A stretch of 64,000 nucleotides of DNA. It comes from Chloropicon primus (lineage: Eukaryota; Chlorophyta; Chloropicophyceae; Chloropicales; Chloropicaceae). Positions 6,490-54,637 of the stretch are shown one piece after another (within the stretch, counting starts at the first letter, position 1; each line of letters opens with the position of its first letter). Location: the NCBI GenBank assembly GCA_023205875.1, contig CP060773.1, forward strand, positions 186,001 to 250,000. The letters run 5' to 3'. Made by a program: the position numbers and the translations under genes. The notes beneath the pieces are model-generated. The model had not been told where the DNA came from, did not search any database, and saw only the letters and a program-made list of their open reading frames with translations.

Positions 6490-9486
6490 TCACTCCCTTG
6501 CACCAGCAGCACTGAGCTCAAAAGACTCCTCCGTGGCAGCAGCATTTTCGAAAACGAGCTTTGCGTCGGCAAAGGTGTTGCCATCGATGGCCTCCTCATC
6601 CAAGCTTCTGCTCTCGAGCTTGATGCTGATGTCGCTTCCCTCCTCGAAGGACCCCTTGAGCAGGAGCTTTGCCAGTGGGTTCTCGATCTCCTGCCTCATC
6701 ACCCTCTTCACGGGCCTCGCTCCAAAGACTGGATCGTAGCCCTTGCGCGCGAGATACTCCAGGGCCTCGGGGCTCAAGCTGATGCTGATCTTCCTGTCCT
6801 TCAGCCTGTCCTTCAGCCTCTCCAACTGAAGCAGAACGATGTTCTCAATCTGCTTTTCTGTGAGTGGCTCGAACACGATGAAATCGTCCACCCTGTTGAT
6901 GAACTCCGGCCTGAACTGCTGGTGGACGGATTGCATCATCTTCTCCTTCCTCTTTTCCCTTCTCTCTTGGCCGAGGCTGTCCATGTTCCCGTGCTCCTCA
7001 AAGTCCTCCAAGATGTGAGAGGAGCCCACGTTGGAAGTCATGATGATCACGCAGTTCTTGAAGTCGACGAGCCTGCCCTGCGAGTCTGTGATCCTCCCGT
7101 CGTCCAACACCTGGAGCAAGATGTTGAAGACCTCGCCGTGGGCTTTTTCCATCTCGTCGAAGAGGACGACGGAGTACGGCCGCCTCCGGATGGCCTCCGT
7201 GAGCTGCCCCCCCTCCTCGTGCCCAACGTAGCCAGGCGGGGCACCGATGAGTCTGCTCACCGTGTGCTTCTCCATGTACTCGCTCATGTCAATCCTGACC
7301 AGGGCGTCCTCGCTCTCGAACATCAAGCCAGCGAGGGCCTTGGCAAGCTCCGTTTTGCCCACGCCGGTGGGTCCCATGAAGAAGAAGGAAGCCGTGGGTC
7401 GCCTTGGGTCCGCGAGCCCCGCCCTGGACCTCTGAATGGCGTCCGCCACGGCCGTCACGGCCTCATCTTGGCCGATGACCCGCTCGTGGAGCTGATCCCC
7501 CAGAGTCAAGAGCTTCTCCCTCTCACTCTGCTGGAGCTTGTTGACGGGAATCCCGGTCCACTTGGAGATGACGTTGCAGATGTCGGCCGCATTCACCTCC
7601 TCCCGAAGCAAGTTGTGGCTCGACCCGGTGTCGTCCATGGCGCGCGCCTCGGCTTCGTCAAGGTCCTTCTGCAGGTTGAGCAGAGTGCCGTACTTGAGTT
7701 CCGCGGCCTTGTTCAGGTCGTAGTCCCTCTCCGCCTGGGTAATCTCGATCTGCACACGATCGATCTCCTCCTTCAGGCTCTGAACCTCCTCGATCAGCCC
7801 CTTCTCCTCCATCCACTGGGACTCGAGTTCAGACTCCTTGGTCTTGAGCCTCCGCAGGTCGTTCTCGATGGCGTCGAGCCGGTTGTTGGCCCGGCCGTTC
7901 TTCTTGGAGCCCCCTTGCCCCGAGTTCTCCCTCTCGAGGGACAGCCGCTCCATCTCGAGCTGCATGACTTTCCTCGTGATCCTATCCAGGGCTTGGGGCT
8001 TGGAGGTGATCTCCATCTTCAGCCCGGCGGCCGCCTCGTCCATCAGGTCGATAGCCTTGTCCGGCAGAAACCTGTCCGAGATGTACCGGTCGGACATCAC
8101 CGCGGCCTCCACCAGGGCCCCGTCCGAGATCCTCACCCCGTGGTGGAGCTCGTACCTCTCCCGGAGGCCCCTGAGGATGCTGATGGTGTCCTCCACGGTG
8201 GGGGCGTCCACGTAGACCTGCTGGAACCTCCTTTCCAGGGCGGCGTCCTTCTCGATGTACTTCCTGTACTCGTTCAGCGTCGTGGCGCCGATGCACCTCA
8301 GCTCCCCCCTCGCCAGCTGCGGCTTGAGGAGGTTCCCGGCGTCCATCGCCCCCTCCGAGGCCCCCGCCCCGACCAGCGTGTGCATCTCGTCGATGAAAAG
8401 GACCACCTTCCCGTCCGAGGCCTTGACCTCGTCGATGACCCCTTTGAGCCTGTCCTCGAACTCCCCCCTGAACTTGGCGCCGGCCAGCAGGCTTCCCATG
8501 TCCAGGGCGAAGATCTGCCTGTCCTGCAGGGACGCGGGGACGTCCCCCGCGACAACCCTCTGCGCCAGGGCCTCGATCACCGCGGTCTTCCCCACGCCCG
8601 GCTCCCCGATCAGGACCGGGTTGTTCTTGCTCCTCCGGGACAGGATGTGGACGCACCTCCTGATCTCCTCGTCCCTGCCGATGACCGGGTCGAGCTTCCC
8701 CTCCCTCGCCTCGTGGGTCAGGTCCCTCCCGTACTTGAGCAGAGACTCGTACGTGTCCTCCGCCTGCCTGGACTCCACCTTCTTGTGCGCCGGCCCCCTC
8801 ACGTTCCTCACGTGCTCCATCATCTTCTCCTTGCTGCTGCAGTCCTGCACCCCGCAGTTCCTCAGCCCCTGGTACCCGAACCTCTTCGTGTCCCTCGCCA
8901 GCGCAAGCACCAGGTGCTCCACCGACACGTACGAATCATCCATGTCCAACCGTATCTGTTCCGCCACCGCCATGCACCTCTCCAAGTTCTTCCCAAGCAC
9001 CTGACCCAACGAGGACTCGTCTTGGGTCTCCACCTTGGGCTGAGACATCAGAAACCTCTCCAAGTTCCCCTCCAGGGTCTCCACTTGGCCACCGCACTCC
9101 CTCACCACCCGCCGAGCGAGGCCCTTCCTGTCCTCAAGCAGTGCTTTCATCAAGTGCTCCGTCTCCACCACTTGGTGCTTGTACTCCTTGGCCACCTCTG
9201 GAGCACCCACCACCGCATCCCATGCCTTCTCCGTGAAGTTCTTCTGCTGGATCCTCCGCTTCGAAGAGGATGACGAAGAGGATGACCAAGACGATCCGTC
9301 GTCATCATTCGCACGCATCACCACAGTACGCCTCCTCCTCGACAAAACAGGACAAGACAACGTAGAGGAAGAATCACAAAACCTTCCTCGAGATACATAA
9401 GACCTCTTCACCGAAATCGGTGAAGAAATACGGACGTCATCCCGACCATGGACCTGGATCCCAGCACGTGCCCAACACGTTCTCAT
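6490..9486 (-). CDS. clpB: Organellar ClpB/HSP101 disaggregase
   Basis: A single exon of 998 aa from the ATG at the complement of 9484-9486. An Arg/Ser-rich leader ends near residue 60 with VVMRA, which resembles a plastid processing site. Clp N-repeats lie at about 85-230. The first AAA+ module has Walker A GEPGVGKT at 293-300 and Walker B VLFIDE near 362. The coiled-coil M domain spans about 495-620. The second module has GPTGVGKT at 704-711 and VVLFDEMEK near 773. ClpB hexamers thread aggregated proteins with HSP70 help. The length, M domain and lack of a ClpP loop indicate ClpB rather than ClpC. The leader lacks acidic residues early, so a mitochondrial location is also possible. The frame stays open further upstream through a CT repeat, but that part is low-complexity. 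GCGTTACG motifs lie 54 and 75 bp upstream. Confidence 0.95.
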   Translation of the reverse strand: MRTCWARAGIQVHGRDDVRISSPISVKRSYVSRGRFCDSSSTLSCPVLSRRRRTVVMRANDDDGSSWSSSSSSSSKRRIQQKNFTEKAWDAVVGAPEVAKEYKHQVVETEHLMKALLEDRKGLARRVVRECGGQVETLEGNLERFLMSQPKVETQDESSLGQVLGKNLERCMAVAEQIRLDMDDSYVSVEHLVLALARDTKRFGYQGLRNCGVQDCSSKEKMMEHVRNVRGPAHKKVESRQAEDTYESLLKYGRDLTHEAREGKLDPVIGRDEEIRRCVHILSRRSKNNPVLIGEPGVGKTAVIEALAQRVVAGDVPASLQDRQIFALDMGSLLAGAKFRGEFEDRLKGVIDEVKASDGKVVLFIDEMHTLVGAGASEGAMDAGNLLKPQLARGELRCIGATTLNEYRKYIEKDAALERRFQQVYVDAPTVEDTISILRGLRERYELHHGVRISDGALVEAAVMSDRYISDRFLPDKAIDLMDEAAAGLKMEITSKPQALDRITRKVMQLEMERLSLERENSGQGGSKKNGRANNRLDAIENDLRRLKTKESELESQWMEEKGLIEEVQSLKEEIDRVQIEITQAERDYDLNKAAELKYGTLLNLQKDLDEAEARAMDDTGSSHNLLREEVNAADICNVISKWTGIPVNKLQQSEREKLLTLGDQLHERVIGQDEAVTAVADAIQRSRAGLADPRRPTASFFFMGPTGVGKTELAKALAGLMFESEDALVRIDMSEYMEKHTVSRLIGAPPGYVGHEEGGQLTEAIRRRPYSVVLFDEMEKAHGEVFNILLQVLDDGRITDSQGRLVDFKNCVIIMTSNVGSSHILEDFEEHGNMDSLGQERREKRKEKMMQSVHQQFRPEFINRVDDFIVFEPLTEKQIENIVLLQLERLKDRLKDRKISISLSPEALEYLARKGYDPVFGARPVKRVMRQEIENPLAKLLLKGSFEEGSDISIKLESRSLDEEAIDGNTFADAKLVFENAAATEESFELSAAGARE

Positions 9487-9539
9487 GCTTCTCGTGACCC
9501 CGTGGCGTGACGTTTTCGAAGAATTGCGTACCCATGGGT

Positions 9540-9568
9540 GCGTTACGCGACCATTGAAAGGCGTTACG
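9540..9568. promoter_or_regulatory. Paired GCGTTACG motif upstream of clpB
   Basis: Two exact copies of GCGTTACG lie at 9540-9547 and 9561-9568, 54-82 bp upstream of the clpB ATG. This is one of several such pairs in the window. Function is inferred from recurrence near start codons. Confidence 0.45.
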
Positions 9569-10456
9569 ATCGAACGGGCACGCATCCTGGACCCCGGATC
9601 CGTCATGCTCGTCGTCGTCGTCGTCATGCTCGTCGTCGTCGTCGACCTTCTCTCTCTCTCTCTCTCTCGCTCTCTCGCCTCGTCTCGTCGCCTCGTGGAG
9701 ATTCGAACCCGGAACTGGAACCTCCTCGAAAATTCTAGCGCTTTCTTGAACGTCACCCACAGTAACGTAATACGTCTTTTTTGTTTTGTGTTCGTTTCAC
9801 GTCGTTACATTTGTACGTCTCCACACGCGTGACCCGGTCTCCGTCCCGAGGGATGAGTTGTGTCTCTCTCGACCCATCAATGTGGGATTTTCTACTTCGG
9901 AGCGTTTTTTTTTCATTTCCATTTTGCAGTTTATCAATAACTCTCTCACTGCATATTGTAACCACTCCTTCACCCAACAACATCACCCCTTTTTCGACGG
10001 AATTAAGAACGTATTGCACACCTTATTCTCTCTTTCTGGTGTGGTTTAAGTAACGACACTCTTTCGAATGTTTTCCCTTTCTTCGTTCTAGGACGTTATT
10101 GACCTGATTTACGAGATCTGGAAAGGATTTTATTTTTGTGGAGGAGAGAGCCCAAGAAGATTAATGCCCGAGCACGAGGAGGCGGAGGCGGAGAGCAGCG
10201 GAGGAGGAAGGCATTGACGAGGCCATTGACCGCGAGAGAGGGAAGAGAGGGAACACCCCCACTGGTTCCCTTAGGTCATCACGGAACACTCTCACCCTCC
10301 ACAAACAACAACCGCCTTCCTCCAGTGACGCCAACACGAAGAGAAGAGCTTCAGGAAAGGAAACCAAAAGTTGTCTTCTTTCCATTCATCTCTCTCTTCC
10401 ATTCATTGGATTGGAATTGGTTTGGCCTTCTCTTGAGCAACGCACGTGTTTTCATT
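9569..10456. other. Intergenic region between divergent clpB and SAT
   Basis: No supported gene. It contains a CGT run and a CT tract at about 9605-9680 and an AT-richer stretch at 9750-10140. Short frames on both strands have no recognisable content. Confidence 0.6.
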
Positions 10457-13042: not shown

Positions 13043-14886
13043 ATGAGCATCATCAAAGGTAAGCGAGCGTTACGCGGACTCCCTCGAGAGTTACGAGACA
13101 CGCCTCCTTCGCCACCAAAAAAAAGAAAGCAAACTCTGTTGACGCGATCGACTTGACTCTCTCCCTCTCTCTCTCTGATCATGATCCAACATGATATGAT
13201 CATGATGATGATCATGATGATGATGATGATCGTCGTCGTCGTCGTCGTCGTCGTCTTCGTCGTCGTGCTTGGTGATGACGGTTCAGTCCAAGTGAAGTGG
13301 AAGAAGGGAAAGTACGATGTGGAAGTGGACACGGCGCAGCCGCCGAGCTTGTTCAAGATGCAGCTGTTTAGCCTGACTGGCGTCCCGCCGGAAAGGCAGA
13401 AGATATTGGTCAAGGGAGGGACCTTGAAGGACGACGGTGACTGGACCAAGGTAAGGCAAGGGAAAGGAACTGCCCTGGAGGCCGGATCAGGGCCCTGGAT
13501 GGATGGACTGACTTGTGGAGGGATGCTGCGTTTGCTCAGGTCGGCGTGAAAGCGAACCAGACGTTGATGATGATGGGTAGCGCGGAGCCTACGGCTGCGG
13601 AGGGTGACGCGGGGGCTTCGAACGGAGACACTGCTATGGAAGATGCGAGCAAAGGCCAGGTCGAGGCCGAGAGTGGCGAGAAGGGCGCCTCTGACGACAA
13701 GGGATCAAAGCCTTTTCAGCCACCTTGCGGTCTCACAAACCTCGGCAACACTTGCTACATGAACGCTACCATGCAGTGCCTTTACTCGATCGAGGAGCTC
13801 AAGACAGCTCTTAAGACTTACAACACAACGAGCCAGCTGGATCCGACGGCGAGGTTGACGGCCTCTGCGAGAGATCTCTTTCGCAAGATGGAGCTGGAGA
13901 CGTCCGGACAGCCTTCCATCTCGAGCGCCGGGGCCGGCAACCCAAGCGCCCAGAAGTTTGATCTGGACAACGAGGAGAAGGAGGAGGACGGCATGTACGA
14001 GGAGAAGAGCGTCACTCCGTCAGAGTTCTTGGCGAGCTTGAGGCAATCCTTTCCACAGTTCGCCCAGCAAGGAGCCGGCGGTTTGTACATGCAGCAGGAT
14101 GCGGAAGAATGTTACAGTCAGGTGCTGAACGCCTTGAGGGAGAAGTTGGACACGAGCGGCGACAAGAAAGACGTCAAGGACTTGTTTGGGATCGACATGG
14201 AGACGAACTTGGTGTGCGAGGAGAGCAAGGAGGAGGTGAACGAGAAGTCTACTCTGTACACTTTCAAGTGCAACATCTCCCAAGAGGTGAACCATTTGCA
14301 CGACGGCTTCAGGCTCAGTCTCTGCGAGGACAGAGAGAAGCACTCCCAAGCGCTCGGCCGAATGGCGCTCTTCAAGGGAGTCAGCAAGATCAACACGCTG
14401 CCAAAGTATCTCTCGGTCCAGCTGGTCAGGTTCTTGTACAGGAGGGACACCCAATCCAAGGCCAAGATCCTCAGGAGGGTCGGCTTCCCCCTGCAGATGC
14501 TCGACGTCTTCGAGTTCTGCTCGGACGAGTTGAAGGGCACCTTGGAAACGGGTAGAAAGACGTGGCAAAAGATGGAGGACGAGAAGGCGGAGTTGGCCAA
14601 GAAGCGAAGGACTGGGGAGAGCGGAGAGAGCCAGGAATCCCAGACCAGCGTCGTTATCGGGGACTCGAACCACACCGGTTTCTACGACCTGCACGCCATC
14701 ATCACTCACAAGGGAAGGAACGCGGACAGCGGTCACTACGTGAGTTGGGTCAAGAGAGACGGACAGTGGGTCGAGTTCGATGACGATGACGTCTATCCTG
14801 TCACGGATGAAGACATTCAGAAGCTTGATGGTGGTGGGGACTGGCACATGGCTTACGTTTGCATCTACAAAGCTCGCTTGGTCTAA
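13043..14886 (+). CDS. USP14: Ubiquitin-specific protease USP14/UBP6
   Basis: The exons are 13043-13058, 13287-13450 and 13540-14886, giving 508 aa. The 5-codon first exon (MSIIK) joins in frame to a ubiquitin-like domain (VQVKWKKGKYDVEVDT, LVKGGTLKDDGDW, LMMMGSA) that binds the proteasome subunit RPN1. The USP domain has the Cys box GLTNLGNTCYMNATMQC with C132, the QQDAEECYSQVL block, and the His box NADSGHYVSWVKRDGQW. The enzyme trims ubiquitin chains on proteasome substrates. Intron 1 (228 bp) contains GCGTTACG at 13067-13074, directly after the donor, and an ATG/CGT microsatellite. The length matches animal USP14 (494 aa). Confidence 0.96.
13195..13268. repeat. Trinucleotide microsatellite in USP14 intron 1
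   Basis: Runs of ATG/ATC units change into CGT units that end just before the intron acceptor. Open frames here (Met/Ile then Val runs) are artefacts of the repeat. Confidence 0.85.
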
Positions 14887-28364: not shown

Positions 28365-29531
28365 TCAATCGATGAGGTGGCTCACGTCCGCCGTCCCAAG
28401 CTTGCCGCTGTAACTCCCGTTCCACACCTGCTTGGCGAACGTCTCGTTGGGAAGAATGATGCTGAGCATGTAGAGCTTCTCGGCAGCGTCAGGATTGACG
28501 ATGGAATGAACGTTCTTCGGCTTCACGAGAAGCGTGTCGCCCTCCGCACCCGTGACTGGCTCGTCGCTCTGATTCAGGTACAGATCCGCCCTTCCCGAAA
28601 GCACGATGAACAGCTCGTAGGCCTCGTCATGCAGGTGCCTTGGTATCACGCCCTGTGGATCCAAGATCTCGATGCTGCACGTGAAAGGGGTGCAATCCCG
28701 GAAAGGGTCGAAGACCGGAGCTATCCTGTTGTTCATGCTCGGCAATTGAAACGTCAGCAGCTCGGCCGTCCTCCGCAACCTGGAGCTCAGCAGGCAGCTT
28801 TCCGTTTCCTGCTGCTTGAGCTTGATTTGCGCCGGAACGTCCATGGAGTTCCTCCTGTCCACCGGAGAAGAAGATCGCCTGTGATCCATCGACCAGGTCT
28901 TGCTTCCCCCTCCGGCCCCTTGGGCGGCAATCACACCCTTGTGCGCCGCAAGTGAGACCGGGACGGATATGCTCAACATGACCATCCCTTCCTTCCCCCC
29001 GCCCCCCCGCGATTCTCCCCCCCTCGTCTCTATAGCGTAAGGCACCCTCGGAGCTATCGCAAAGATGTCCCCGGACTCGAGCTCCACCACGTCGCTGACT
29101 TTTGTCGACTCCGTCCCGAAGGACAAGTGGCCCAGCCGCCCGCTGCCGGAGAGGATGTAATACACGTGGTAGCAGTCCACTTCCACCCTCACCCTCGACC
29201 TCTCGGAGCTGGCGGACGCCTCCGACCCTCCCAAGCCAGCTTCATCTGCAACGAGCTCGAGCTCCACGCCAAAGGGGCTGCCTTCCCCGTCCCGACTCCG
29301 CTTCAACACGGTGTCGACGAGCCTTCCTCTGTCATCCTTCAACCACTTGTGGTCCTTACTCGAGAGCAACCGAGCCAAACTTCGCTCCGGCCTTTCGCAC
29401 ATCCTCTCCCTTCGGTCATTCCCCCCCGACCTCGCCCTCTGCGACTCTCTCCCCCGCCGCCTCACCGGCCTCGCACCACCGGGGACACCTAGGCTCCCCG
29501 TCGTCGTCGCCCTGCCACCCCTGTTGATCAT
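28365..29531 (-). CDS. Bicupin protein
   Basis: A single exon of 388 aa from the ATG at the complement of 29529-29531. The N-terminal region is Arg/Gly-rich. Cupin 1 (about 145-205) has YHVYYILSGSGRLGHLSF and ESGDIFAIAPRVPYAIE. Cupin 2 (about 295-370) has RHLHDEAYELFIVLSGRADLYL with the HxH...E metal ligands and PKNVHSIVNP. Only the second cupin keeps the usual metal-binding histidines, so it is likely the active half. Bicupins include oxalate decarboxylases, dioxygenases and storage globulins; the substrate is not predictable. The frame stays open upstream to 29588, but that part lies in repeat B, so the later ATG is preferred. Confidence 0.75.
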   Translation of the reverse strand: MINRGGRATTTGSLGVPGGARPVRRRGRESQRARSGGNDRRERMCERPERSLARLLSSKDHKWLKDDRGRLVDTVLKRSRDGEGSPFGVELELVADEAGLGGSEASASSERSRVRVEVDCYHVYYILSGSGRLGHLSFGTESTKVSDVVELESGDIFAIAPRVPYAIETRGGESRGGGGKEGMVMLSISVPVSLAAHKGVIAAQGAGGGSKTWSMDHRRSSSPVDRRNSMDVPAQIKLKQQETESCLLSSRLRRTAELLTFQLPSMNNRIAPVFDPFRDCTPFTCSIEILDPQGVIPRHLHDEAYELFIVLSGRADLYLNQSDEPVTGAEGDTLLVKPKNVHSIVNPDAAEKLYMLSIILPNETFAKQVWNGSYSGKLGTADVSHLID

Positions 29532-29570
29532 CCTCAATGAATCAAGCACAAAACCAAAAAAGGGAGATAA

Positions 29571-29831
29571 ACCGGTCGTGCTCCCCACTAATCGAAAGAT
29601 ATCGAGTCAATTCTTCGCTCCGTAACGCCCTCGCCCTCCGGATCCACCTCCCTCGCCCTCCACTGCGTCACAAAGTCACGCCACTCCTGCTCCTGAAGCT
29701 CTGCCCAATGCCTTGATGACCAAAGTTGGCGACCACTCCGGTTGCCAAACGAGTCGAGTGAGGGCTCGTTCGAAAGAGAAAGAGATGTTCTACCGCGATG
29801 CGTTGTCGTCTTTCCCTCTCACGCTCTCGTT
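29571..29831 (-). repeat. Dispersed repeat B, copy 3 (inverted, shortened)
   Basis: It is inverted relative to 721-1077 and 33809-34171. Homology runs from ACCGGTCGTG to CTCTCGTT and then stops, lacking about 90 bp of the other copies. The core AGTGAGGGCTCGTTCGAAAG is at 29757-29776. The unrelated sequence that follows leads into the Fanzor locus, so 29831 is a candidate insertion edge. Confidence 0.8.
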
Positions 29832-29989
29832 ACCGTCAATAATCGACGACGGGAAATATCTTTCTCTTCTGCAATATCTTTCTCTTCTACAACGGTAGGG
29901 AAATCACAGTCAATACTGGAAGCACAAAGGCAAGTTCTCCTTTCCACTGAAAGAGAGAAACACGGAGAGAAACACGGAGAGAAACAGCC

Positions 29990-30171
29990 CCTTTCTTGAC
30001 GGCCCGGCCACAACTTACCTGTTAGTTTTCTGCAAAGGTCGTTTCACCGAGTTTGTAAGTTTCTCGGCAGGGTAATTCGGCCCTACCACGACCATTCCAC
30101 CGTACATGAACGAATACTTCCGCCCACGCACGGCAGCCCGTACTAACAAACGTATGTGCAACCCTGAGGAG
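29990..30171 (-). ncRNA. Putative Fanzor guide RNA (fRNA) scaffold region
   Basis: This is the first 180 bp after the Fanzor stop codon, on the same strand. TnpB and Fanzor loci are known to specify their guide RNA at the 3' end of the nuclease gene and the adjoining untranslated region. Here two adjacent hairpins are visible on the minus strand. One pairs CCGAG/CTCGG around an 11-nt loop (30047-30067). The next pairs GTAGGG/CCCTGC with one G-U around an 8-nt loop (30067-30086). This tight folding is unlike the microsatellite-rich spacers elsewhere. The 3' end, and hence the guide, cannot be placed from one copy. Confidence 0.45.
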
Positions 30172-32268
30172 TTACACACTTTTTGGTTGACGCAAGTGCT
30201 TCAGGAGGACGTTGCGTGCCCCGTTCACATCCCGACCGCACTTGAAGCCACACTTCTGGCACTTGTACACCTCTGCTCCACCCAGGTTGTCCTTGATGTG
30301 TCCGCACCTGCCACAGGTCTTGGAGGTGTACTCCTCCGTCACGATCGCCAGCTCACTGCCGTGCAAGAGCACCTTGGAAGCCAAGAACGTTCTGAACGCA
30401 TAGTGCCTCAACGTCAAGAGCGTGCGAGCCGTCTTCTTCCTGATCACTCGGCGTCTCCCGTTGTTGTTCTTCTTCACCATGTCTTGGGACTTGAACTCCG
30501 GGAGGAGGATTGTGTCGAACCTCCTGCATAGATCGTTGGCTACCTTTTTGTGAAGCTCGTTCGTCAGACCTCGAAGTTTCTCCATGCAGGCGTATTGCTG
30601 TCTCTTCAAGTCGCGGCGGTCGAGGTAAGGGAGCTTCACCTTTGGGTCTTTGCGCTCGGAAATGATCCCATCAATCCTCCAGCAGAGGTTGAACAGCCTC
30701 GCGAAGCCTCGCTCGCCCGTGGCATACTCCCCGACGCCTTCTTGCGGCGAGTACGACGTCTGAAAGGTCCTGACTCCCGGATCCAGGGCGACAACCTTCC
30801 GCTTGTTCTCAGGCTTCAGGGGTGGCAGGCGATCCCATGGCGTCGCGATGGGAATGTGCATGTGGAACTGCCCAAGGCGATTTCTTGTGATCTTCACGGC
30901 ACCCTCGATCTTGCCCCCGGGGATCTCCTCCGTCAAGTACAGGGGCCCGCCGGCCATCTTCTTCTTGAACACCTCCAGCTTGGTCCACTTGCGTCGTTTC
31001 TTGTGCTTCGTATCATCCTTGTGTCTCGTGTTTGGCCTTTCGATCGTCTCCACGTTCTTTAACTCTCTTGCATCAATTTCAATGGTCCAAGAACTCGGTT
31101 GCTGACGTTGACGATACTTGAGAACGAAGCGGTGCCCCTTCTCCTCGCCGCGCTCCTTCATCGCTTCCTGCTTCGCGGTGTTCGAATCCCATGCCTTGAT
31201 GAGACTTCGCACGGCAGCTTGTCTGATGGCACAGGGGGTATCCTTCAGCCAAGGATGCTTCTGATTTACAAAGGCCCCGCTAACGTAGTCCCGGTCCTTG
31301 CCCACTTGGATGCGAAAAGCTCTGCCTCCAATTTGGCTCTCGAGTCTGTTCTCTCTGGCCGCGAAAAGCTCTGCCTCCTGTTTTGTCCATGGCCGTGGAG
31401 AGCATTGGATTTCTTTCAGCTCTTTCTTCAGGCCCTGAAAGACCTCAGGGCCTCGAGGTTTGGCCGTCACAAATCTGTCCAGCAGGACGGTCCAAACCAG
31501 CGGAAAACGCTCCTTCTTGACCGCCTCCAAACACTTGTTGTATGTGAAACGCGCAGCTCCCATCCAGTTGCAAAGGCACTTCGCCTGCTCAGGGTTCAAG
31601 CGCATCCTCAGCTTCCTCGTCCGTATCACCGTTCGCTCCGACAATAGCTTGGAGGTCTTCAGTTTCTGCCCCCTCTTCCTTTTGGCGGGCGGCTGCAATG
31701 TCTCGACGGATACCACAGAATCTTCTGGAAGGTTCAAGCACGACCTCCATCCCGTCTTCGGACACTTTACCTCTTCAAGTTCTCTCTTCATCGATGAGAA
31801 CCAGGTCTTCTTCACGCTGTCGTCCGCCAAGCCACCCGGCTGCTTCCCTGCTTTCTTCCCCCTCTTGTTCTTCTTCTTCTTACCCTTCTTCTTGTTCTTC
31901 TTCTTGCCCTTCTTGCGAGGCTTCTTGCGAGGCTTGCCTGACGAGCTCGAACTCTCACCCGCAGAGGAAGCCGCCTCCGGCGGCTTCCCCTTCTCCTTCC
32001 GCTTCCCCCCCCGCTTCTTGCGAGGCGTGCTCGAACCCTCACCCGCAGAGGCGGGGTCGTCCGCGATAGGAAGCAGGCACAACGAGTAGAGCAACTGCAA
32101 GCCCTGATTCCAGAACCGACGTAACGGCCGCTCCGTCGTCGGAGACTCCTGCCCCGACTTCGAAGCGCCCTGAGCATGACTCTCGCCAGAGTGCGACCTC
32201 CTTGTGGAACTCGTCGAGCCACTCCCCTGCTTCTCCTTTTTCTTACGGCGCTTCCCTGATCGCGCCAT
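30172..32268 (-). CDS. Fanzor: eukaryotic TnpB-like RNA-guided endonuclease
   Basis: A single uninterrupted exon of 698 aa. The N-terminal 210 residues are very basic (long Lys/Arg tracts at about 80-145), which could bind RNA and act as nuclear signals. The OrfB/TnpB core begins near 218 (LRMRLNPEQAKCLCNWMGAARFTYN). The RuvC nuclease motifs are intact: VVALDPGVRTF with D496; LLPEFKSQDMV with E591; TEEYTSKTCGRCG with E645/E646 and zinc ligands C652 and C655; C670 and C673; and CGRDVNGARN with D680. The glutamate next to YTSKTC is the rearranged active-site position reported for Fanzors and a subset of TnpBs; E591 marks the canonical one. Fanzors are nuclear, transposon-derived nucleases guided by an RNA encoded at their 3' end. 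No transposase or terminal repeat was found beside it. Base composition is like the neighbours. Confidence 0.93.
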   Translation of the reverse strand: MARSGKRRKKKEKQGSGSTSSTRRSHSGESHAQGASKSGQESPTTERPLRRFWNQGLQLLYSLCLLPIADDPASAGEGSSTPRKKRGGKRKEKGKPPEAASSAGESSSSSGKPRKKPRKKGKKKNKKKGKKKKNKRGKKAGKQPGGLADDSVKKTWFSSMKRELEEVKCPKTGWRSCLNLPEDSVVSVETLQPPAKRKRGQKLKTSKLLSERTVIRTRKLRMRLNPEQAKCLCNWMGAARFTYNKCLEAVKKERFPLVWTVLLDRFVTAKPRGPEVFQGLKKELKEIQCSPRPWTKQEAELFAARENRLESQIGGRAFRIQVGKDRDYVSGAFVNQKHPWLKDTPCAIRQAAVRSLIKAWDSNTAKQEAMKERGEEKGHRFVLKYRQRQQPSSWTIEIDARELKNVETIERPNTRHKDDTKHKKRRKWTKLEVFKKKMAGGPLYLTEEIPGGKIEGAVKITRNRLGQFHMHIPIATPWDRLPPLKPENKRKVVALDPGVRTFQTSYSPQEGVGEYATGERGFARLFNLCWRIDGIISERKDPKVKLPYLDRRDLKRQQYACMEKLRGLTNELHKKVANDLCRRFDTILLPEFKSQDMVKKNNNGRRRVIRKKTARTLLTLRHYAFRTFLASKVLLHGSELAIVTEEYTSKTCGRCGHIKDNLGGAEVYKCQKCGFKCGRDVNGARNVLLKHLRQPKSV

Positions 32269-32716
32269 GACTGCTAGGGTTTCACTCGCCGTCCTCGTCC
32301 CTCGTCCCTCGCGACAAACTCAACCGATCGATCGATCGTCTGCCAACTCGAACTGACGCTGCTCTCTCTCTCTCTCGAGGCGCGAAAATGTTTTCAAATC
32401 CCCCCCAAAAGAAGCGAAATCACTTGTAAATTTATTACACTCGTTTCGATACACAGGGCGAGGTTTGTTTTTCAGGGGAGGGGGTCGAACTCTTCGTTCT
32501 GGTGGATTTCTCCCTTCCGCTGAACCATCATAACGGCCGAGCACGAGGGCGAACCAGGAGGAGGGAGAGAGAGAGAAGGGGGACGGGAGAGCGCGGAGGA
32601 GGAAGAGGGAGGCGGAGGACCGGACAGAAGGAAGCGTCGTCTCGTGCTCTTTCGAAAGAGCCCTCGCTCGAAGAGAACGACCCGGTGGTGAGGATCTGAG
32701 GAGCACGGGCGTGAAG
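32269..32716. other. Spacer between Fanzor and ankyrin gene, with repeat E copy 1
   Basis: It begins with a CCCTCGTCCCTCG direct repeat and GATC units. A short AT-rich stretch (32400-32450) follows. From about 32505 it enters repeat E (GCACGAGGGCGAACCAGGAGG), shared with 40052-40210 and, inverted, with 58328-58510. The core CTTTCGAAAGAGCCCTCGCT lies near 32650. No gene is supported. Confidence 0.6.
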
Positions 32717-32937
32717 ATGGCGGTGACAGGGGGAGCGAGCAAGAGGCAGAGGACGGAGGGATGCGCTGGAGGTGCTTCCCGAGTGGGCGTGGTTCCTGGT
32801 CTTGAAGCAGCTGGACGATTACGACCACCTTGCTTTTGGGGTTGACCTGCAGGACGTTCCTCGAGGCGGTGACGAAGGCGACGAGCCCCGAGGAGAAGAA
32901 GAAGGCTCGCCTGAGGACGGACCTGTCGCAAGAGAAG
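32531..32937 (+). repeat. 407-bp segmental duplication, copy 1
   Basis: It starts TAACGGCCGAGCACGAGGGC and ends TGTCGCAAGAGAAG. It matches 40052-40458 at constant offset (7521 bp) with only a few substitutions and no indel. It covers the promoter-proximal repeat E and the F-box part of the ankyrin gene. Confidence 0.9.
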
Positions 32938-33709
32938 TTGTTCGATCAGGTGCCTTCCTTCACTTTGGGTTGGTACCAGCGGATGTTCCAATCGTTCAAA
33001 AGGAAGAAGTCTCGGAGATTTGAAAGAAAGAAGGGAGCACGGTTCAATTTTGTACCTCTGTATGGACACTCCAACTACTTGTACCTCTCCGACTACACGT
33101 ACGACGTCGAGCTGATGTACCTCGCCGCTTTCCAGGGCAGCAAGAAGGTGATGAAGTGGCTGGTGAGCCAAGGGATCCCTTTGGGTATCATTCTTCGCGG
33201 TTTACCTCATGAGGAGCGGTAGCAGTTGAAAGAGCTGCTGAAGGAGGTCACATTGATGTTCTGGAATGGTTGAGGAGCGAGGGGTGCGGGTTTGGTGAGG
33301 AGGCTTGTGCGGGTGCAGCTCGAGGAGGCCACCTTGACGCTCTGCAGTGGCTTCGAAGCCTGGAACCGCCTTGCCGTTGGAGCGGGTGGACTTCTTTTAG
33401 TGCAGCTCAAGGAGGCCACCTTCATATTCTCAAGTGGCTTCGAAGCCTGGATCCGCCTTGCCCTTGGGACGTGGAGACTTGTGAATATGCAGCTAGAGGA
33501 GGTCACCTTGATGTTCTCAAGTGGGCTCGTAGCCAGCGTCCGCCTTGCCCTTGGAACAAGAATACTTGTTGGCAGGCAGCTGAAAGAGGTCACTTTCATG
33601 TTCTCAAGTGGCTTCGAAGCCAGCATCCGCCTTGCCCTTGGAAACCAAAGAAATGCAAAATCGTAACCCGAAACCCGAAAGTCGTCAAGTGGATCCAGGA
33701 GAACTCTTA
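32717..33709 (+). pseudogene. F-box/ankyrin-repeat protein gene, frame-disrupted
   Basis: The ATG at 32717 opens MAVTGGASKRQRTEG. The reading then has to shift to reach LEVLPEWAWFLVLKQLDDYDHLAFG, an F-box-like helix, and again to reach LTCRTFLEAVTKAT. Both shifts fall in G runs (near 32762 and 32840). A third change separates MKWLVSQGIPLG (33180) from the ankyrin part at 33230-33709. That part has units of about 33 residues of the type GGHLDVLKWARSQRPPCPW. Such ankyrin families with W-x-PPCPW spacers are common in algae and large DNA viruses and mediate protein contacts. Two or three frame breaks suggest a pseudogene. Sequence errors in G runs, or a tiny intron at the third break, remain possible. 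Confidence 0.65.
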
Positions 33710-33808: not shown

Positions 33809-34171
33809 CCGAGGAGGGGAAAGAACGAGAACGAGATAGATGGCGAGAACGAGAGTGTGAGAAGGAAAGACGACAACGCATCGCGGTAGAACATCTCTTT
33901 ATCTTTCGAACGAGCCCTCACTCGACTCGTTTGGCAACCGGAGTGGTCGCCAACTTTGGTCATCAAGGCATTGGGCAGAGCTTCAGGAGCAGGAGTGGCG
34001 TGACTTTGCGACGCAGTGGAGGGCGAGGGAGGTGAATCCGGAGGGCGAGGGCGCTACAGAGCGAAGCGTTGACTCGATATCTTTCGATTGGTGGGGCGCA
34101 CGACCGGTTTCTCTCCCGGAACAAGGGTTTGCTTGAGTTGTGAAGGCACGAGAGAGGACACGGCAAAGGGA
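33809..34171 (+). repeat. Dispersed repeat B, copy 2
   Basis: A 363-bp direct copy of 721-1077 with a 6-bp insertion (ACGAGA) near the start and scattered substitutions. It ends about 50 bp before the start of the FAD oxidoreductase. Confidence 0.85.
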
Positions 34172-34219
34172 CGTGGAGGAGCCAGGAGGGCAGAGAGCCA
34201 AGAGGTTTTGGGCGTGGTG

Positions 34220-35500
34220 ATGAGGAACACCGGGGCTGCAGGGCGAATCAGCCGAAGGATGGGGCACGTGAGACGCGGCATGAGACTCTCCTGCTCTCTG
34301 TCCTCGTCCCCAGAAGCCAAGGACACCGTAGCAGTCCTCGGCGGAGGCATCTCTGGCTTGGTGTGTGCCTTGGACGTGAAGCGCGCGAGGGAGGACACCA
34401 AGGTAGTCCTGTTCGAGCAATCGAGGAGAGCGGGAGGGAGGGCGTCGAGCCGAGTGGTGTGGCGCGACGGGCCGACGAAGGACTTTGCTTGGGACCACGG
34501 GTGCCAGTTCCTCACGCCCAAGTCAGCGGTCGTGAAGGAGATGTGCGGGAGCTTGGTCGAGAGGGGAGTCCTCGCGGAGTGGACGGGAACCTTCGGGCTC
34601 CTGGACGCGAGGGCCGGCACGTTTTCGGAGGACAAGAGGGAAAGGTGGAGGCTCGTGGGCAAGCCGATGATGGGCGCTCTGGCGGAGCACCTGGCGAGGG
34701 AAGCCCAAGACCTCGCGGGGGTGGACGTTCGCTTCGACGCTCGGGTGACCGGGATACGGAGGCGACGGGGCTCGCTGGGCACTGGGCGCTGGGTCATCAC
34801 CTCAAAGGGGAGGGGGGGTGACCCCGTGGAGACCTTGGCCGACGTGGTCGTCGCGAGCGACTGCCTCCAAGCGAACCTGGTGAAGGACCTCGGAGGGGCG
34901 AGCAAGGTCTTCGAGGCCATGAACGCCGCGGGAAGGAGGAGCTCCGTGGGGGGCTCCCCCCCGAGCTTCGCGGCGATGGTCGCGGTGAGGGGGCCCACGG
35001 GCCTCCCGGAGGGCGTAGCGGTCACGGGAAGCGACCGAGTGAGCTGGATGGCCAAGGACAGCAGCAAGCCGGGGAGGTCCTCCTGCGCGCCGGACGGCGT
35101 CGAGCTGTGGACCCTCCAGGCCTCCCCGTCCTACGCCTCGAGGATCGTCGAGGAGAGGGGTTTCACGCGGAGAGGGACCCCGGAGCACGAGGCCCTGCTC
35201 CAAGAGGTGGCGCGGGACCTCACGTCCGGGGCGAGGGAGGCCTTCGCGAGCATCGGGCAGGACTTTCCGGGCGATCGCCTCCTCGTGGGCGCGCCGACGA
35301 GCCACCGGTGGGGCTCGGCCTTCCCGCCGCCCTGCGCGTCCGGGGAGGTCGGCGCGGCCCGCCTCGCGGCGTCGGAGGACGGCACGCTCCTGGCGTGTGG
35401 GGACTGGGCGGCGCCCGAGGGGGAGGAGGGCAGGGTGGAGGCGGCGATCCTGTCCGGGAAAGCGGCGGCGAGGAGGACAGGCACCCTACTACTTAGATGA
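34220..35500 (+). CDS. Renalase-like FAD/NAD(P)-binding oxidoreductase
   Basis: A single exon of 426 aa from the ATG at 34220. The Rossmann motif VAVLGGGISGLVCALD is at about 37-52, the acidic end of strand beta-2 at E66 (VVLFEQSRRAGGRASSR) with GGR at 72-74, then WDHGCQFLTPKS. This order is typical of the renalase/amine-oxidase superfamily with a C-terminal DWAAP...VEAAILSGKAAA block that closes over FAD. The first 35 residues are Arg/Ser-rich and could be a plastid or mitochondrial leader. The frame continues upstream to 34088, but inside repeat B, so that start is not used. Plant and cyanobacterial relatives are uncharacterised oxidoreductases; the substrate is unknown. The gene is the most GC-rich of the window. 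Confidence 0.85.
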   Translation: MRNTGAAGRISRRMGHVRRGMRLSCSLSSSPEAKDTVAVLGGGISGLVCALDVKRAREDTKVVLFEQSRRAGGRASSRVVWRDGPTKDFAWDHGCQFLTPKSAVVKEMCGSLVERGVLAEWTGTFGLLDARAGTFSEDKRERWRLVGKPMMGALAEHLAREAQDLAGVDVRFDARVTGIRRRRGSLGTGRWVITSKGRGGDPVETLADVVVASDCLQANLVKDLGGASKVFEAMNAAGRRSSVGGSPPSFAAMVAVRGPTGLPEGVAVTGSDRVSWMAKDSSKPGRSSCAPDGVELWTLQASPSYASRIVEERGFTRRGTPEHEALLQEVARDLTSGAREAFASIGQDFPGDRLLVGAPTSHRWGSAFPPPCASGEVGAARLAASEDGTLLACGDWAAPEGEEGRVEAAILSGKAAARRTGTLLLR

Positions 35501-38145: not shown

Positions 38146-38717
38146 ATGTGCGCCGCGGAGGGGGTTGATGTGGGAAGAGTCCGCGGATCTAGAGTTCAAA
38201 CCACTCAAGCGTTCCAAAGTTCCTTGCTTTCTCGACCGCCACCGGCCTCGCTGTTTTTGTCTGAATCTCCAGACCAGTGATGATGCGACCCCCATCGCTA
38301 TGGTGAACCACAGGGCTGTGGCCCCCTGCACAGCACCACGAAGCATGTCTTCGACGAGTGAAGTTCTTGACGACGAAAAGAGAAAACGGCCGAGCAGAGA
38401 GAGAGGAACGAGAACGAACGAGAACGACGACGGGCCTGAGACAAGCTAAGCTTGTGTTGCTTGCTTGGATCCTAGTCCTCATCCTCTCTCCGCGAGGACG
38501 AAGCGGACGCCTTTGCTCCGACACCACCACCAGCAGGAAAGGACGCGACCCTTTCTCTTACTCTTACTCTTTCTCTTTTTCGCGCGAAAACAGGGAGAGA
38601 GAGGGGGGGGGGAGGCATTACGTTCCGTCTCAAGCCTTACGCTTGGGTTGGCGTCGTCGTCGTCGTCGTCGAGCGTTTTCTTTACTTCTTCTGCTTCTGC
38701 TTCTTTTGCTTGGTGTC

Positions 38718-39818
38718 ATGTCGCAGTACATGAACGAGTCTCAGCTGGAGGTGGCGAGCGTGGTGGAGGAAGCGAGGAGGGAGGCGAGGGCGAGGGCGAT
38801 GACGCGGTGCGAGTACGAGTCCGTACGCCCGTACGCAGTACAGTGGGCTGGGACGACGGAGATTAAGGACCACCAGAAGTCGAGCACGTGGTGGCTGTAC
38901 CGGCCGTCGATGAAGTCGATCGTGGATTACTCTTGCGCGCCGGAGACGGAGGGGGAGATGACGTTCGAGGAGGAAAGGAGGCTACTGATCAACCTGGAGA
39001 TGCTCCCCGACGAGAGGATGCGTAAGGTGTGGCACATCATCCAGGAGTCCCCGGGCGTCACCAGGGAGGCCGAGGAGTCCATGAGGAGTCAGAACAGGCT
39101 GGCGAACTTCGACGCTCTGGACGCCGCGACCCTGTGGAGGCTGCACCGGTACGTCAACTCGTGCTACAAGGAGGAGGCCCTGAGGGAGCTGCGGAAGACC
39201 ATGGGCCTGGGCTGCGCGTTCTGCGGGTACAAGACCCAGGGGTGCTCCTACTGCAACCCCAACAAGGAGAGGAGGATCAAGGCCAAGGTGGCGTGCCTGG
39301 CCCACAGGATCGGGGCCGTCACCGACCAGCTCCACTGGCTGAGGGCGGCGTACGAGAAGCAGATGATGACCCACGGCACTGTCGTCGCCCAGACCGGAAG
39401 GAACACGGCGTTGATGCAGGACCTGGAAGACCAGGCCGTCAGGACCGTCAAGACGCTGGACAAGCTCCGCGAGGCGGAGCGCTCCTACTGCAGGAAGGTC
39501 GTCTCGGACAAGCTCTCCATCCTCCCTCATGAGAAGATCCTGGAGTGCCACGACATGATCCGCAAGGGGACCAGCAGGGACGCCCTCTACGAGTGCGGCG
39601 GCCAGCGCAATGGCCGAGGCAGTAGCAGCAGGAGGGACGACAAGGTCGGGGTCAACTTTGCCATGCTCGACGAGCAGACCATGCGCGAGGTGAACAAGTT
39701 CGTGAACAAGGCGCTCGGCGAGTGCGGAATAGAGTGCTTTTCCGACGCGGTGACGTTCTGGGAGAAGATGGAGGAGGACAGAGAGGGGCTCATGGCAGCG
39801 ATGGGGGGACTGATGTGA
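38718..39818 (+). CDS. Protein with two NET (BET extra-terminal) domains
   Basis: A single exon of 366 aa. NET 1 (about 81-140) reads TFEEERRLLINLEMLPDERM, then VWHIIQE, NFDALDAATLWRLHRYV. It matches the BET pattern of a basic first helix, a linker, and an F-x-x-L-x-x-x-T-L-x-x-L-x-x-Y-V end. NET 2 (about 256-316) is a diverged repeat (KLSILPHEKILECHDMIRKG, then VNFAMLDEQTMREVNKFV). Between them lie a C156/C159/C166/C169 cysteine cluster (CAFCGYKTQGCSYC) and a coiled coil. NET domains in BRD2-4 and plant GTE proteins recruit chromatin factors. No bromodomain is present here, so this may be an adaptor or competitor. Nuclear function is inferred. Confidence 0.75.
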   Translation: MSQYMNESQLEVASVVEEARREARARAMTRCEYESVRPYAVQWAGTTEIKDHQKSSTWWLYRPSMKSIVDYSCAPETEGEMTFEEERRLLINLEMLPDERMRKVWHIIQESPGVTREAEESMRSQNRLANFDALDAATLWRLHRYVNSCYKEEALRELRKTMGLGCAFCGYKTQGCSYCNPNKERRIKAKVACLAHRIGAVTDQLHWLRAAYEKQMMTHGTVVAQTGRNTALMQDLEDQAVRTVKTLDKLREAERSYCRKVVSDKLSILPHEKILECHDMIRKGTSRDALYECGGQRNGRGSSSRRDDKVGVNFAMLDEQTMREVNKFVNKALGECGIECFSDAVTFWEKMEEDREGLMAAMGGLM

Positions 39819-52453: not shown

Positions 52454-52990
52454 CAGAGCGCCATCTTCTTCGTGCGACCACTCATTGGAAAGATCGCGAG
52501 ACACTCTTTCCATCAATTCCTCCCTCGTCCTCTCCCTCTCTTGTTGCCGTCCTCGTTGTCGCGCTGAAGTTCACTCACTCACCTCGGTGCTCCTCCACCC
52601 GTCGCCTCGTGGAAAAGAAAGTGAGACCCCATCGGGCGGCGAGGAACACCGAGGTGAGTTCAGGGAGCCAGGGGACGACGAGGACGGGGGCCAGAGCGGA
52701 CGAGGGAGGTATTGATGGAAAGAGCGGCTCGCGAGCTTTCCAATGAGCATCCGCACGAAAAAGATGGCGCTCTGACGAAGATTTGGGACGACTGAACGTG
52801 TTGTTTTCCGCCGTTTTGGGTTCCATGGGTGCCGCCTTTGCAGGTGAGTGAGCGAGGACACGGGGGCCAGAGCGGATGAGGAAGGCATCGATGGAAAGAT
52901 CATCTCGCTCTCTTTCGTTTGAGCATCCGCAGGAAGGAGATGGCGCCCTGACGAGGGATTGAAACTGAATTGAAGGGTTTTGTTTGCATC
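52454..52990 (+). mobile_element. Foldback element C, copy 3, with outer arm
   Basis: The inner element is 52454-52774 (321 bp). Its ends are inverted repeats of about 75 bp, starting CAGAGCGCCATCTTCTTCGT on the left and ending AAGATGGCGCTCTG on the right, with matching ATTGGAAAG and GCTCTTTCCAT blocks. The centre contains inner inverted CACCTCGGTG and CCGAGGTGAG. 52850-52990 is the related outer arm ending in TTGAAACTGAATTGAAGGGT. The whole is the inverted equivalent of 25674-26211. No coding capacity. Confidence 0.8.
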
Positions 52991-53108
52991 GTTTTTTTCT
53001 CTTTCCTCTTGATCATGAACAAGGCAGTGAGGCACTTGGAGCTTGCCTCGGCGCGTGTTCGGATTCATTGTCAATCCAGGAAAGGCGAATCGTTTGTGTC
53101 CGAGTCGA

Positions 53109-53137
53109 GCGTTACTCTTCTTCCTTTGAGCGTTACG
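53109..53137. promoter_or_regulatory. Direct GCGTTAC pair upstream of the DUF2045 gene
   Basis: GAGCGTTAC occurs twice (motif at 53109-53115 and 53130-53137), 58-86 bp before the ATG at 53195. Confidence 0.4.
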
Positions 53138-53194
53138 AGAATCGCGCTGGATGCCAAGGAGTTAGTGAGTTCGTTGCTGAGCTTGGTCATCCCT

Positions 53195-54637
53195 ATGGCT
53201 GTTGAGGAAGGAGGGAGTGGAGGCGGGGCCGTCGCCGTGCCGCTGGAGGAGTCTGAGGTCGATCCCCTCTCGAGGCAGGGCGACAAGGTGGGTCCCGAGG
53301 GGGGTGGAAGCAAGGGGCAAGACAAGGAGGAGGAAGGGGTGAGCGCTTACGAGGCTATTATGGGAACCGTGAGGAGCTACGCCGTCCGAACCCTCGGTGC
53401 GGCCGCGACGCCGGAGGCGAGCTCGGCGGGAGGCAAGGGGGAGAAGGGCGGCAAGGCAGACTCGGAGTGGGGGGGTGCTGAGTATTGGCAGGATGAGCAC
53501 TGGCGGACAGCGCTGGAGGAGCTCTTTTACAACAATCGCGAGAAGCGGAAAGAGAAGCAGGACGACATGGTGTTCTACGTCTACGACCAAGTCTTGAACG
53601 AGAGGTGGAAGTCCAAGAAGAAGGACAAAGGGGGAGCGAGCAAGAGCGGCAAGCTGGATGTCACGGTGCGGCGGTTCGGCTCCGGGGTTTTGAAGGATGA
53701 GGATTTTGGAGGCATCCAATGGATGGAGAGCGTGTACTTGAATCTCTTGCTGCACACGACCTACACCTGCACCGTTGCCATCTGCAGCAAGACGGCCTTG
53801 GAGAGGCACAAGAGCGGCCAGGCCGAGCCGGCTTTGCCCGTCTTCAAGACGTCGCGGCAGGTGTACGCGTCCCACACCCACATCTCCATCAACCTCAAGA
53901 CGAACTCCGGCTCCGGCAAGTTCGACAAGAAGGACAACTTTGATTTCAAGAACGCGGTGGAGCTGGCGTACCCTCAAGTGTACTTCTCCATCGACGATTT
54001 CGAGGACGCCTTCGAGGACTTGATTGTGGAGGACGAGGACCACTGCCTCTGCGTGCTGCTTTACGCCAGGGATGGACCGACGTTCAAGTGGAAGGGGTCC
54101 GCCGCGGCGACGGCCCAAGGGGACCAGGGAAAGAAGAGCAATAACCTGGGGCAGAACAAGAAGGTGTCCCTCTTCTCTGGCTACGTGCCGTACTCCCACC
54201 TTTGGAAGGCCGTGAGCAAGCAAGCGAGGGGCACGTCGGTCGGGGGGTTTCTAGGAATCTCGAGCGGGTCCGCGACGAGCAACGAGCAGCCAGAAAAGTT
54301 GGTCATGAGGGGCCCCGGAGGCAAGGGCCACGCGGAGGTCGCCGTCACGCTCCTCAACAGGAAGACCGTCCACACGACAGACCCTCTTCCTGATCCGTCG
54401 GAAGGGGGAGAGGGGGCTGAGCAAGTCCGCAACGCGGACGAGGGGAAGAGGGGGCTGAGAGGGTTATTCGCAGCGATGCAGAGCAACATCTCTCTGCCCA
54501 TCATCGGAAGCAGAAGCCCGAGCAGTGCCACGACGAGATCAAAAACGACGCAGCACATACGGTGTTGCCTGATGAACGTCAGCCTGCCTTGGCAGTCCCT
54601 CTGCCACGACATCCTAAAGTCGAGCAGAATGATGTGA
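53195..54637 (+). CDS. KIAA0930 homologue (DUF2045)
   Basis: A single exon of 480 aa from the ATG at 53195. After a Gly/acidic N-terminus it follows human KIAA0930 block by block: QDDMVFYVYDQVL, WMESVYLNLLLHTTYTCTVAI, SRQVYASHTHI, ELAYPQVYFSIDDFEDAFEDL, LFSGYVPYSHLWKAV, KLVMRGPGGKGHAEVAV and the C-terminal LMNVSLPWQSLCHDILK. The function of the family is unknown. Species-specific Gly/Lys inserts separate the blocks. The frame is open upstream to an ATG at 53015, but paired GCGTTAC motifs lie between the two ATGs, so the later start is preferred. Confidence 0.85.
   Translation: MAVEEGGSGGGAVAVPLEESEVDPLSRQGDKVGPEGGGSKGQDKEEEGVSAYEAIMGTVRSYAVRTLGAAATPEASSAGGKGEKGGKADSEWGGAEYWQDEHWRTALEELFYNNREKRKEKQDDMVFYVYDQVLNERWKSKKKDKGGASKSGKLDVTVRRFGSGVLKDEDFGGIQWMESVYLNLLLHTTYTCTVAICSKTALERHKSGQAEPALPVFKTSRQVYASHTHISINLKTNSGSGKFDKKDNFDFKNAVELAYPQVYFSIDDFEDAFEDLIVEDEDHCLCVLLYARDGPTFKWKGSAAATAQGDQGKKSNNLGQNKKVSLFSGYVPYSHLWKAVSKQARGTSVGGFLGISSGSATSNEQPEKLVMRGPGGKGHAEVAVTLLNRKTVHTTDPLPDPSEGGEGAEQVRNADEGKRGLRGLFAAMQSNISLPIIGSRSPSSATTRSKTTQHIRCCLMNVSLPWQSLCHDILKSSRMM

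Follow-up and report, generated by a model that had tools for sequence, protein, structure and literature searches.

The window analysed here comprises 64,000 nucleotides of contig CP060773.1 from the green alga Chloropicon primus (assembly GCA_023205875.1). On its minus strand, positions 30172-32268 carry a reading frame whose product is, judged by sequence and predicted fold, a Fanzor2-type RNA-guided nuclease, and which belongs to a family of 30 near-full transposon copies in this genome. Behind the predicted scaffold of the guide RNA (reRNA) and 15 constant nucleotides, almost every copy carries a short junction of its own. These private junctions resemble scars of break repair, and we put the probability at roughly 0.5 that they were left by the Fanzor2 cutting its own element under the guidance of the element's own sequence. 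The protein and the element were already known; the scars, the stand-alone copies of the scaffold and the moved scaffold end appear to be new, and neither private junctions nor a natural self-targeting guide was found in the literature on Fanzors, on Chloropicon transposons and on TnpB self-targeting or reRNA action in trans, supplements and figures aside.

Scaffold end and private junctions

The assembly searched consists of 20 contigs of 417,210 to 1,855,637 bases, 17,584,162 bases altogether, and the set of near-full copies consists of the window copy and loci L009-L037, with L013 (2,654 bp) as reference. In the window copy the predicted scaffold extends on the minus strand from the stop codon to ...AAACTAACAG (30019-30173). 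It is followed on the same strand by the constant 15 nt (GTAAGTTGTGGCCGG, 30004-30018), the proposed guide start, which opens like a 5′ splice site, and by a private filler of 17 nt (29987-30003), the proposed repair scar. Among the 30 copies the scaffold occurs in five haplotypes, with 12 copies identical, and in L013 its end, CTAACAG, lies 157 bp short of the right end of the transposon. The sequence continues as GTAAGT(T)NGKGGCCGG, with 15 nt in 28 copies and 16 nt in two. Scaffold and constant segment are kept in all 30 copies, despite broken frames in ten of them. Around the CAG, no variation is seen at 73 of the 75 positions between −59 and +15 when one base is dropped from the two 16-nt forms, and the other two (+7 and +9) are shared polymorphisms found in 11 copies each.

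Variation starts sharply at +16, from where on 6 to 20 of the 30 copies deviate per position. Over a 30-bp interval at the junction the 30 copies fall into 28 haplotypes, of which 26 occur once, as against a median of 3 for such intervals of the element and a maximum of 14 (of 29) outside this site. When indels are scored against L013, 21 of 64 distinct events fall within element positions 2500-2524. Fillers of 5-6 nt are present in 22 copies (6 nt in twelve, 5 nt in ten), 4 nt in three, and 0, 1, 3, 7 and 17 nt in one each, the last being the window copy. A junction is shared by two pairs of copies only. Among the closest cargo pairs the junctions differ in 13 of 14, and L031 and L035, whose cargo is separated by a single substitution in 2,320 bp, have unrelated junctions. 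At a later site of the right arm, TTTCAG followed by TGGAAAGG, at most one of 30 copies deviates per position over the last 28 positions.

The scaffold also occurs without the nuclease body. Nine loci (L042-L050), first noticed as short C-terminal matches in protein searches, contain the frame's final 143-287 nt together with the 3′ sequence; their homology begins within element positions 2058-2202 and stops at AAACTARCRG, beyond which the sequence is unrelated. Since all nine stop at CTARCRG, the scaffold end is defined there. A segmental duplication accounts for L043 and L044, which are 100% identical over 1,450 bp. A DNA query, of which 40 of 43 candidates were scored, added L056, which consists of scaffold only and ends with CTAAGGG, so that at least ten stand-alone scaffolds end at the CTAACAG position or within one base of it. 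They lie on contigs C13, C16 (two), C15, C19, C1 (two), C2 (two) and C18, each with its own flank. These loci may supply guides in trans or may be left over from an older family of IS607 type. In eight of them the remaining frame sequence departs from the element by 10.5, 7.2 and 9.0% at codon positions 1, 2 and 3, with no sign of protein constraint. Comparison of the candidate guides of the stand-alone loci with the sequence retrieved, a minor fraction of the genome, gave no informative match.

For structural comparison 13 scaffolds were aligned (eight of the ten stand-alone loci and one copy for each of the five transposon haplotypes). The structure pairs 97.4% of the alignment cells, as against 33.7-47.5% when slid, and its covariation score beats 500 of 500 shuffles; further pair types are lower than in every shuffle. 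The closing stem UGUUAGU/ACUAACR terminates exactly at the scaffold end. Its 5′ strand is missing in L042 in the region of six of the seven pairs, and minimum-energy folding of L043 and L049 does not produce the closing stem. Folding energies give z −4.0, a strong value, for the transposon scaffold and weak values (z −0.6 to −2.3) for the five stand-alone scaffolds folded.

A homologous boundary is found in cyanobacterial IS607 TnpB elements ("pro-Fanzor"). These share LDPG and E645 with the algal Fanzor2 and reach 53-63% identity over the C-terminal 49 amino acids among the loci listed; all 80 matching stretches listed, out of 146, are cyanobacterial. Relatives in Arthrospira and Microcoleus match from copy to copy up to ...TATCAG or ...TATCTG, which covers most copies examined (one has TATTAG), and differ from the next base on. 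The scaffold is followed there by site-specific host flank, whereas in the alga it is followed by fixed element sequence and private scars. Precise right ends are seen in IS607 pro-Fanzors of Arthrospira sp. PCC 9108 (L074, L082, L084, L085, L088, L110, L114 and L138), and in several of these copies the shared homology on the left begins at differing points, which recalls the algal stand-alone scaffolds.

Proposed self-cutting and its alternatives

As the scaffold end lies inside the transposon, the guide would be the element's own sequence, and identity of the guide with the site adjacent to the scaffold follows from the element layout. If the CAG at the scaffold end, a candidate target-adjacent motif (TAM), is accepted as such, each ribonucleoprotein would cleave the locus it comes from as well as sister copies, the non-target strand about 15 nt and the target strand 20-21 nt downstream. 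Joining of the broken ends would then write a private scar into each copy, the TAM-proximal side being kept and the TAM-distal side eroded, and cutting could recur because guide and target are one DNA. Repair templated by sister copies would make the adjacent cargo more uniform and shuffle it between arms. The junctions have the appearance of break repair at the position expected for the cut, from which we infer that they are scars made by cleavage. The wider proposal, in which a natural self-targeting nuclease scars its own and sister copies and drives concerted evolution of the family, with the stand-alone scaffolds adding guides in trans, is more tentative and falls a little short of even odds.

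Measured cleavage positions are available for related enzymes. ISDra2 TnpB cuts 15 bp (non-target strand) and 20-21 bp (target strand) from the TAM (Karvelis 2021), and SpuFz1 cuts at 16-17 and 20-21 (Saito 2023). The junction edges, +15 and, by way of the common filler length, about +20/21, equal the former and are near the latter; they would fit TnpB-like staggered cutting if the guide follows CTAACAG and CAG is the TAM. CAG is present in 16 of 19 insertion sites and CTG in one (8 bp each, made up of three flanking bases plus the target duplication), the background rate for CAG being 10.6% (binomial p 1.7e-13).

Cargo and transposon arms are not co-inherited. In Mantel tests on 27 copies, cargo distance is unrelated to that of either arm (rho −0.02 to 0.07, p 0.25-0.53), and the two halves of the cargo correlate with each other (0.42, p 0.001); the near-identical cargo of L031 and L035 is joined to differing 5′ leader types and right-arm haplotypes. 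Cargo diversity, as mean of 100-bp intervals, is about 2.2% in element 601-1600 and drops to about 0.6% in 1601-2500, beside the site, and it is low near the site also at synonymous positions (element 1673-2272). The pattern may be read as repair and conversion between copies, within the limits set by the short arms.

Several observations weigh against self-cutting. The edges are unlike the cut sites of both measured Fanzor2s, NlovFz2 (19/19) and MmeFz2 (17-18 and 9-14), whose TAMs are CCG and TAG (Saito 2023). The IS607 TnpB ISXfa1 has GGG as TAM, and if this applied here too, CAG would not license self-cutting; the CAG at insertion sites is found at the Fanzor-free L038 as well and may therefore be only a preference of the transposase. 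Yoon 2023 (PMC10711439) predicts that terminal repeat and target duplication lie within the scaffold, whose end is thus placed 157 bp beyond the one given here. TAM-proximal loss occurs in none of the 30 copies, though ordinary end joining should sometimes yield it. Furthermore, GTAAGT just after the scaffold together with the downstream TTTCAG (GTAAGT...TTTCTCTCTTTCAG) forms a 47-nt candidate intron, and splicing, if it takes place, would remove the proposed guide; splicing to the AG of the target duplication was also considered, since AG or CAG is common at this junction, again including L038. Protein constraint is weak, with a ratio of nonsynonymous to synonymous diversity (piN/piS) of 0.89 for the whole frame and 0.66 from codon 201 (27 copies). 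Finally, left and right arm are uncorrelated in the same Mantel tests, so that shuffling may be general, a test limited by the short arms.

Among the alternatives, a neutral origin survives best but is unlikely. Here the fusion of cargo and CT-rich arm inside an intron would be prone to slippage and small indels, and no nuclease would be involved. The right arm indeed contains a CT-rich 12-nt repeat in one to three or more copies, and the Fanzor-free L038 and L039 possess both intron-like motifs, too. However, a plain suffix of the arm repeat, as left by loss or slippage, accounts for one of the 30 junctions (L010), and of the 27 fillers with at least 4 nt only seven are also found in the arm and 20 are absent from it. 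The onset of variation at +16 is sharp, though GGCCGG as the interior of an intron needs no conservation. Another repeat tract, of Lys codons, is stable in the same copies (seven haplotypes, 21 copies identical), and three Fanzor-free stretches with the arm tract, albeit only three, are identical from GATCC on.

Homing is the less probable of the two alternatives considered so far, and we regard it as quite improbable. Fanzor-free transposon copies with a match to the guide would have been cut and the cargo copied in repeatedly, with an imprecise right joint each time, and the scars would date from acquisition. The separate inheritance of cargo and arms, with L031 and L035 as an example, agrees with such a process, as does the lack of guide-matching sequence in the Fanzor-free copies found. 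The 5′ joint, however, exists in three types only (two common, one in rearranged copies), so that insertion on that side was not independent and independent cargo insertion on both sides finds no support. Nor is there an empty target left, as the constant 15 nt has 29 perfect matches, 28 in Fanzor copies and one in a seemingly ordinary locus, and copying repair does not readily account for a left edge fixed at +15.

Very doubtful is the arrangement that follows the Yoon 2023 prediction, with an reRNA running through terminal repeat and target duplication, a host-flank guide that recuts empty donor sites, and internal variation of no relevance, as the stand-alone scaffolds give way to unrelated sequence at CTAACAG or within one base of it, the cyanobacterial relatives end at the homologous place, the closing stem stops exactly there and the intervening 157 bp are unusually variable for a scaffold.

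Should the scars be self-inflicted, RNA-guided cutting by a eukaryotic Fanzor in vivo would be on record, cut positions included, in a public genome. Self-cutting would also show a self-targeting state that TnpB elements usually avoid, explain why the scaffold is uniform within the transposon family amid shuffled surroundings, and represent a compact lineage recorder of natural origin. In homing guide RNA systems for lineage recording the guide matches its own DNA and gathers indels; these are engineered from Cas9, whereas in the alga an enzyme of the TnpB/Fanzor type would do so naturally. A second strain, CCMP1205, is 99.91% identical and has a deposited assembly (CP031034-CP031053), DNA reads and RNA sequencing data (SRR8992761). 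If the scars were caused otherwise, attempts to program the enzyme would still profit from the stand-alone scaffolds and from the revised position of the scaffold end.

The Fanzor2 protein and its transposon family

The minus strand of 30172-32268 reads from ATG to stop through 698 codons without interruption, and the plus-strand reading contains several stops; an initial annotation of this DNA had reported the frame correctly but left its strand unsaid. Assignment of the 698-residue product is based on profile matches, an alignment with relatives and a structure model. A disordered, Lys/Arg-rich N-terminus (residues 1-209) precedes a core with HTH_OrfB, RuvC-I and zinc finger, the landmarks of which are LDPG at 495-498 (D496), E645, the cysteines C652, C655, C670 and C673, and D680. 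Pfam matches above the cut-off are Cas12f1-like_TNB (E 8.1e-18) and HTH_OrfB_IS605 (E 1.9e-6), while NCBIfam guided_TnpB (E 1.7e-25) reaches 90 bits against a cut-off of 100.

The frame was aligned with 35 relatives (33 cyanobacterial, two from viral contigs) picked by length from 86 fetched. All 35 share D496, E645, the four cysteines of the zinc finger and D680, and 34 share E646, and to this extent the residues pointed out in the initial annotation hold. E591 is the exception: its position is occupied by T in 30 relatives and by E in none, and because of this the statement that both candidate catalytic glutamates are present fails as worded. The combination of DPG in RuvC-I with the alternative glutamate E645 is that of a Fanzor2 after Yoon 2023.

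In the AlphaFold model built on this alignment (mean predicted local distance difference test, pLDDT, 62.1) residues 1-209 have a pLDDT below 50, in keeping with the long N-terminal extension already noticed, and the rest is folded. Foldseek returns the mimivirus Fanzor2 (PDB code 9b0l) as best match in the PDB, followed by TnpB (8h1j) and Cas12f, with SpuFz1 at rank 38. A profile search of the PDB places Fanzor2 first (E 1.7e-56), an AI-designed nuclease second (E 2.8e-25) and natural TnpB chains from E 6.8e-19. The mimivirus protein (L79) is thus the best solved relative, also by phmmer (E 2.7e-19) and in the Foldseek score (E 1.9e-15); with 520 residues it is shorter than the 698 of the Chloropicon protein, and the likeness is one at the protein level. 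When viral sequences were first scanned with the complete protein, no relatives turned up. Pfam and Foldseek agree on a RuvC and zinc-finger (TNB) module with a predicted TnpB-like fold, and the placement as Fanzor2 is by similarity ranks (phmmer, profile, Foldseek). The initial annotation is borne out in that this algal nuclear genome encodes a RuvC nuclease of the Fanzor type in an intact frame, and neither the profile order nor the Foldseek list speaks for a protein that lacks the RuvC fold or lies outside the TnpB/Fanzor clade.

The family is a Fanzor2 on a non-autonomous cut-and-paste transposon of 2.65 kb. Frames of at least 690 residues starting with MARSG are present in 20 of the 30 copies. 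The reference copy starts with TGTTGGAGG and the right end of most copies is ...CACCATAACA; the inverted match between the ends (TGTTGG... and ...AACA) is short only. Target duplications of 5 bp with at most one mismatch flank 19 of the 21 loci with both ends, 17 of them perfect and one of the 19 Fanzor-free. Target-site duplication and terminal repeats, the marks of Fanzor2*, are thus found in the family; the window copy itself is without both ends. The name was given in Yoon 2023 to the C. primus Fanzor2, whose cut-and-paste transposon is described there as having degenerate terminal repeats as well as target duplications, so that species and element kind (a non-IS607 transposon) are shared with the present family; the private junctions, the stand-alone scaffolds and the shuffling of cargo and arms go beyond the portion of that text devoted to Fanzor2*. 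A count of 25 IS605-like proteins has been given for C. primus CCMP1205 (Lemieux 2019).

The family is also young, with a mean cargo difference of 1.7% between copies of differing junction class. The genome-wide copy search proposed in the initial annotation has changed the view of the gene: with 30 near-full copies a lone host-captured gene is ruled out, and, given the low divergence and the piN/piS values, the intact frame is not due to long retention by the host. The lack of an adjacent transposase is correct locally, yet the frame is a member of a mobile family. Sequence and pattern searches with the element ends gave no transposase-bearing element as autonomous partner. An LTR (long terminal repeat) or Ginger-type integrase was considered as mover because of the TG...CA ends and 5-bp duplications, but no rve integrase match was obtained (the rve control was positive in seven of 14 genomes); for KDZ and hAT the control searches were silent and the searches are hence uninformative.

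Fanzor-free relatives of the transposon are L038, L039, L040 and a stretch inside L028, and L041 is a right end only. L038, L039 and L040 are short elements with the family's ends, L039 with a 103-bp repeat, and in L038 and L039 a small frame (ATGGGCAAG...) precedes GTAAGT. A second, decayed Fanzor with stops is located at L051 (C14:513401-515600; about 57% identical over residues 275-479). L052 (C9:68201-69400) is a deletion remnant in which element 568-776, from the N-terminal cargo, is directly followed by 2489-2509, from the scaffold end and junction.

The window copy and its surroundings

The window copy spans element positions 128-2599 only. Its intact frame, the scaffold and the next 15 nt are retained, but both transposon ends and the target duplication are gone, and the copy should therefore be immobile. 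On the minus strand the remainder of the right arm (29892-29986) ends at element 2599, the last 55 bp including the terminal repeat being absent, and at the other side the rest of the 5′ leader (32269-32314, minus strand) lacks the normal left end (element 1-127). Fused upstream of the Fanzor is a block (32315-33457, minus strand) with 99.45% identity to L028, the element start included, parts of which are a dispersed family.

The copy is flanked by an inverted repeat with a left arm of 277 nt (29562-29838) and a right arm at 33841-34117, 95% identical to each other. These are repeats of the host region and were dismissed as transposon ends, since further copies occur apart from any Fanzor, for the most part on the same contig, and the normal ends lie elsewhere. 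They belong to a dispersed repeat of about 270 bp, mostly on contig C20, which is also present at 754-1023 of the window, at C20:265831 and at C10:170546.

The window also contains ordinary nuclear genes: a ClpB-type AAA chaperone (6490-9756, minus strand), a ubiquitin hydrolase (13513-14886, plus), a cupin (28365-29588, minus), an amine oxidase (34088-35500, plus), a BET domain gene (38358-39818, plus) and a DUF2045 gene (52970-54637, plus). Positions 33299-33641 contain an 87-nt tandem repeat (a unit of 29 amino acids) that by eye resembles ankyrin repeats, with no Pfam match in the single nearby frame tried.

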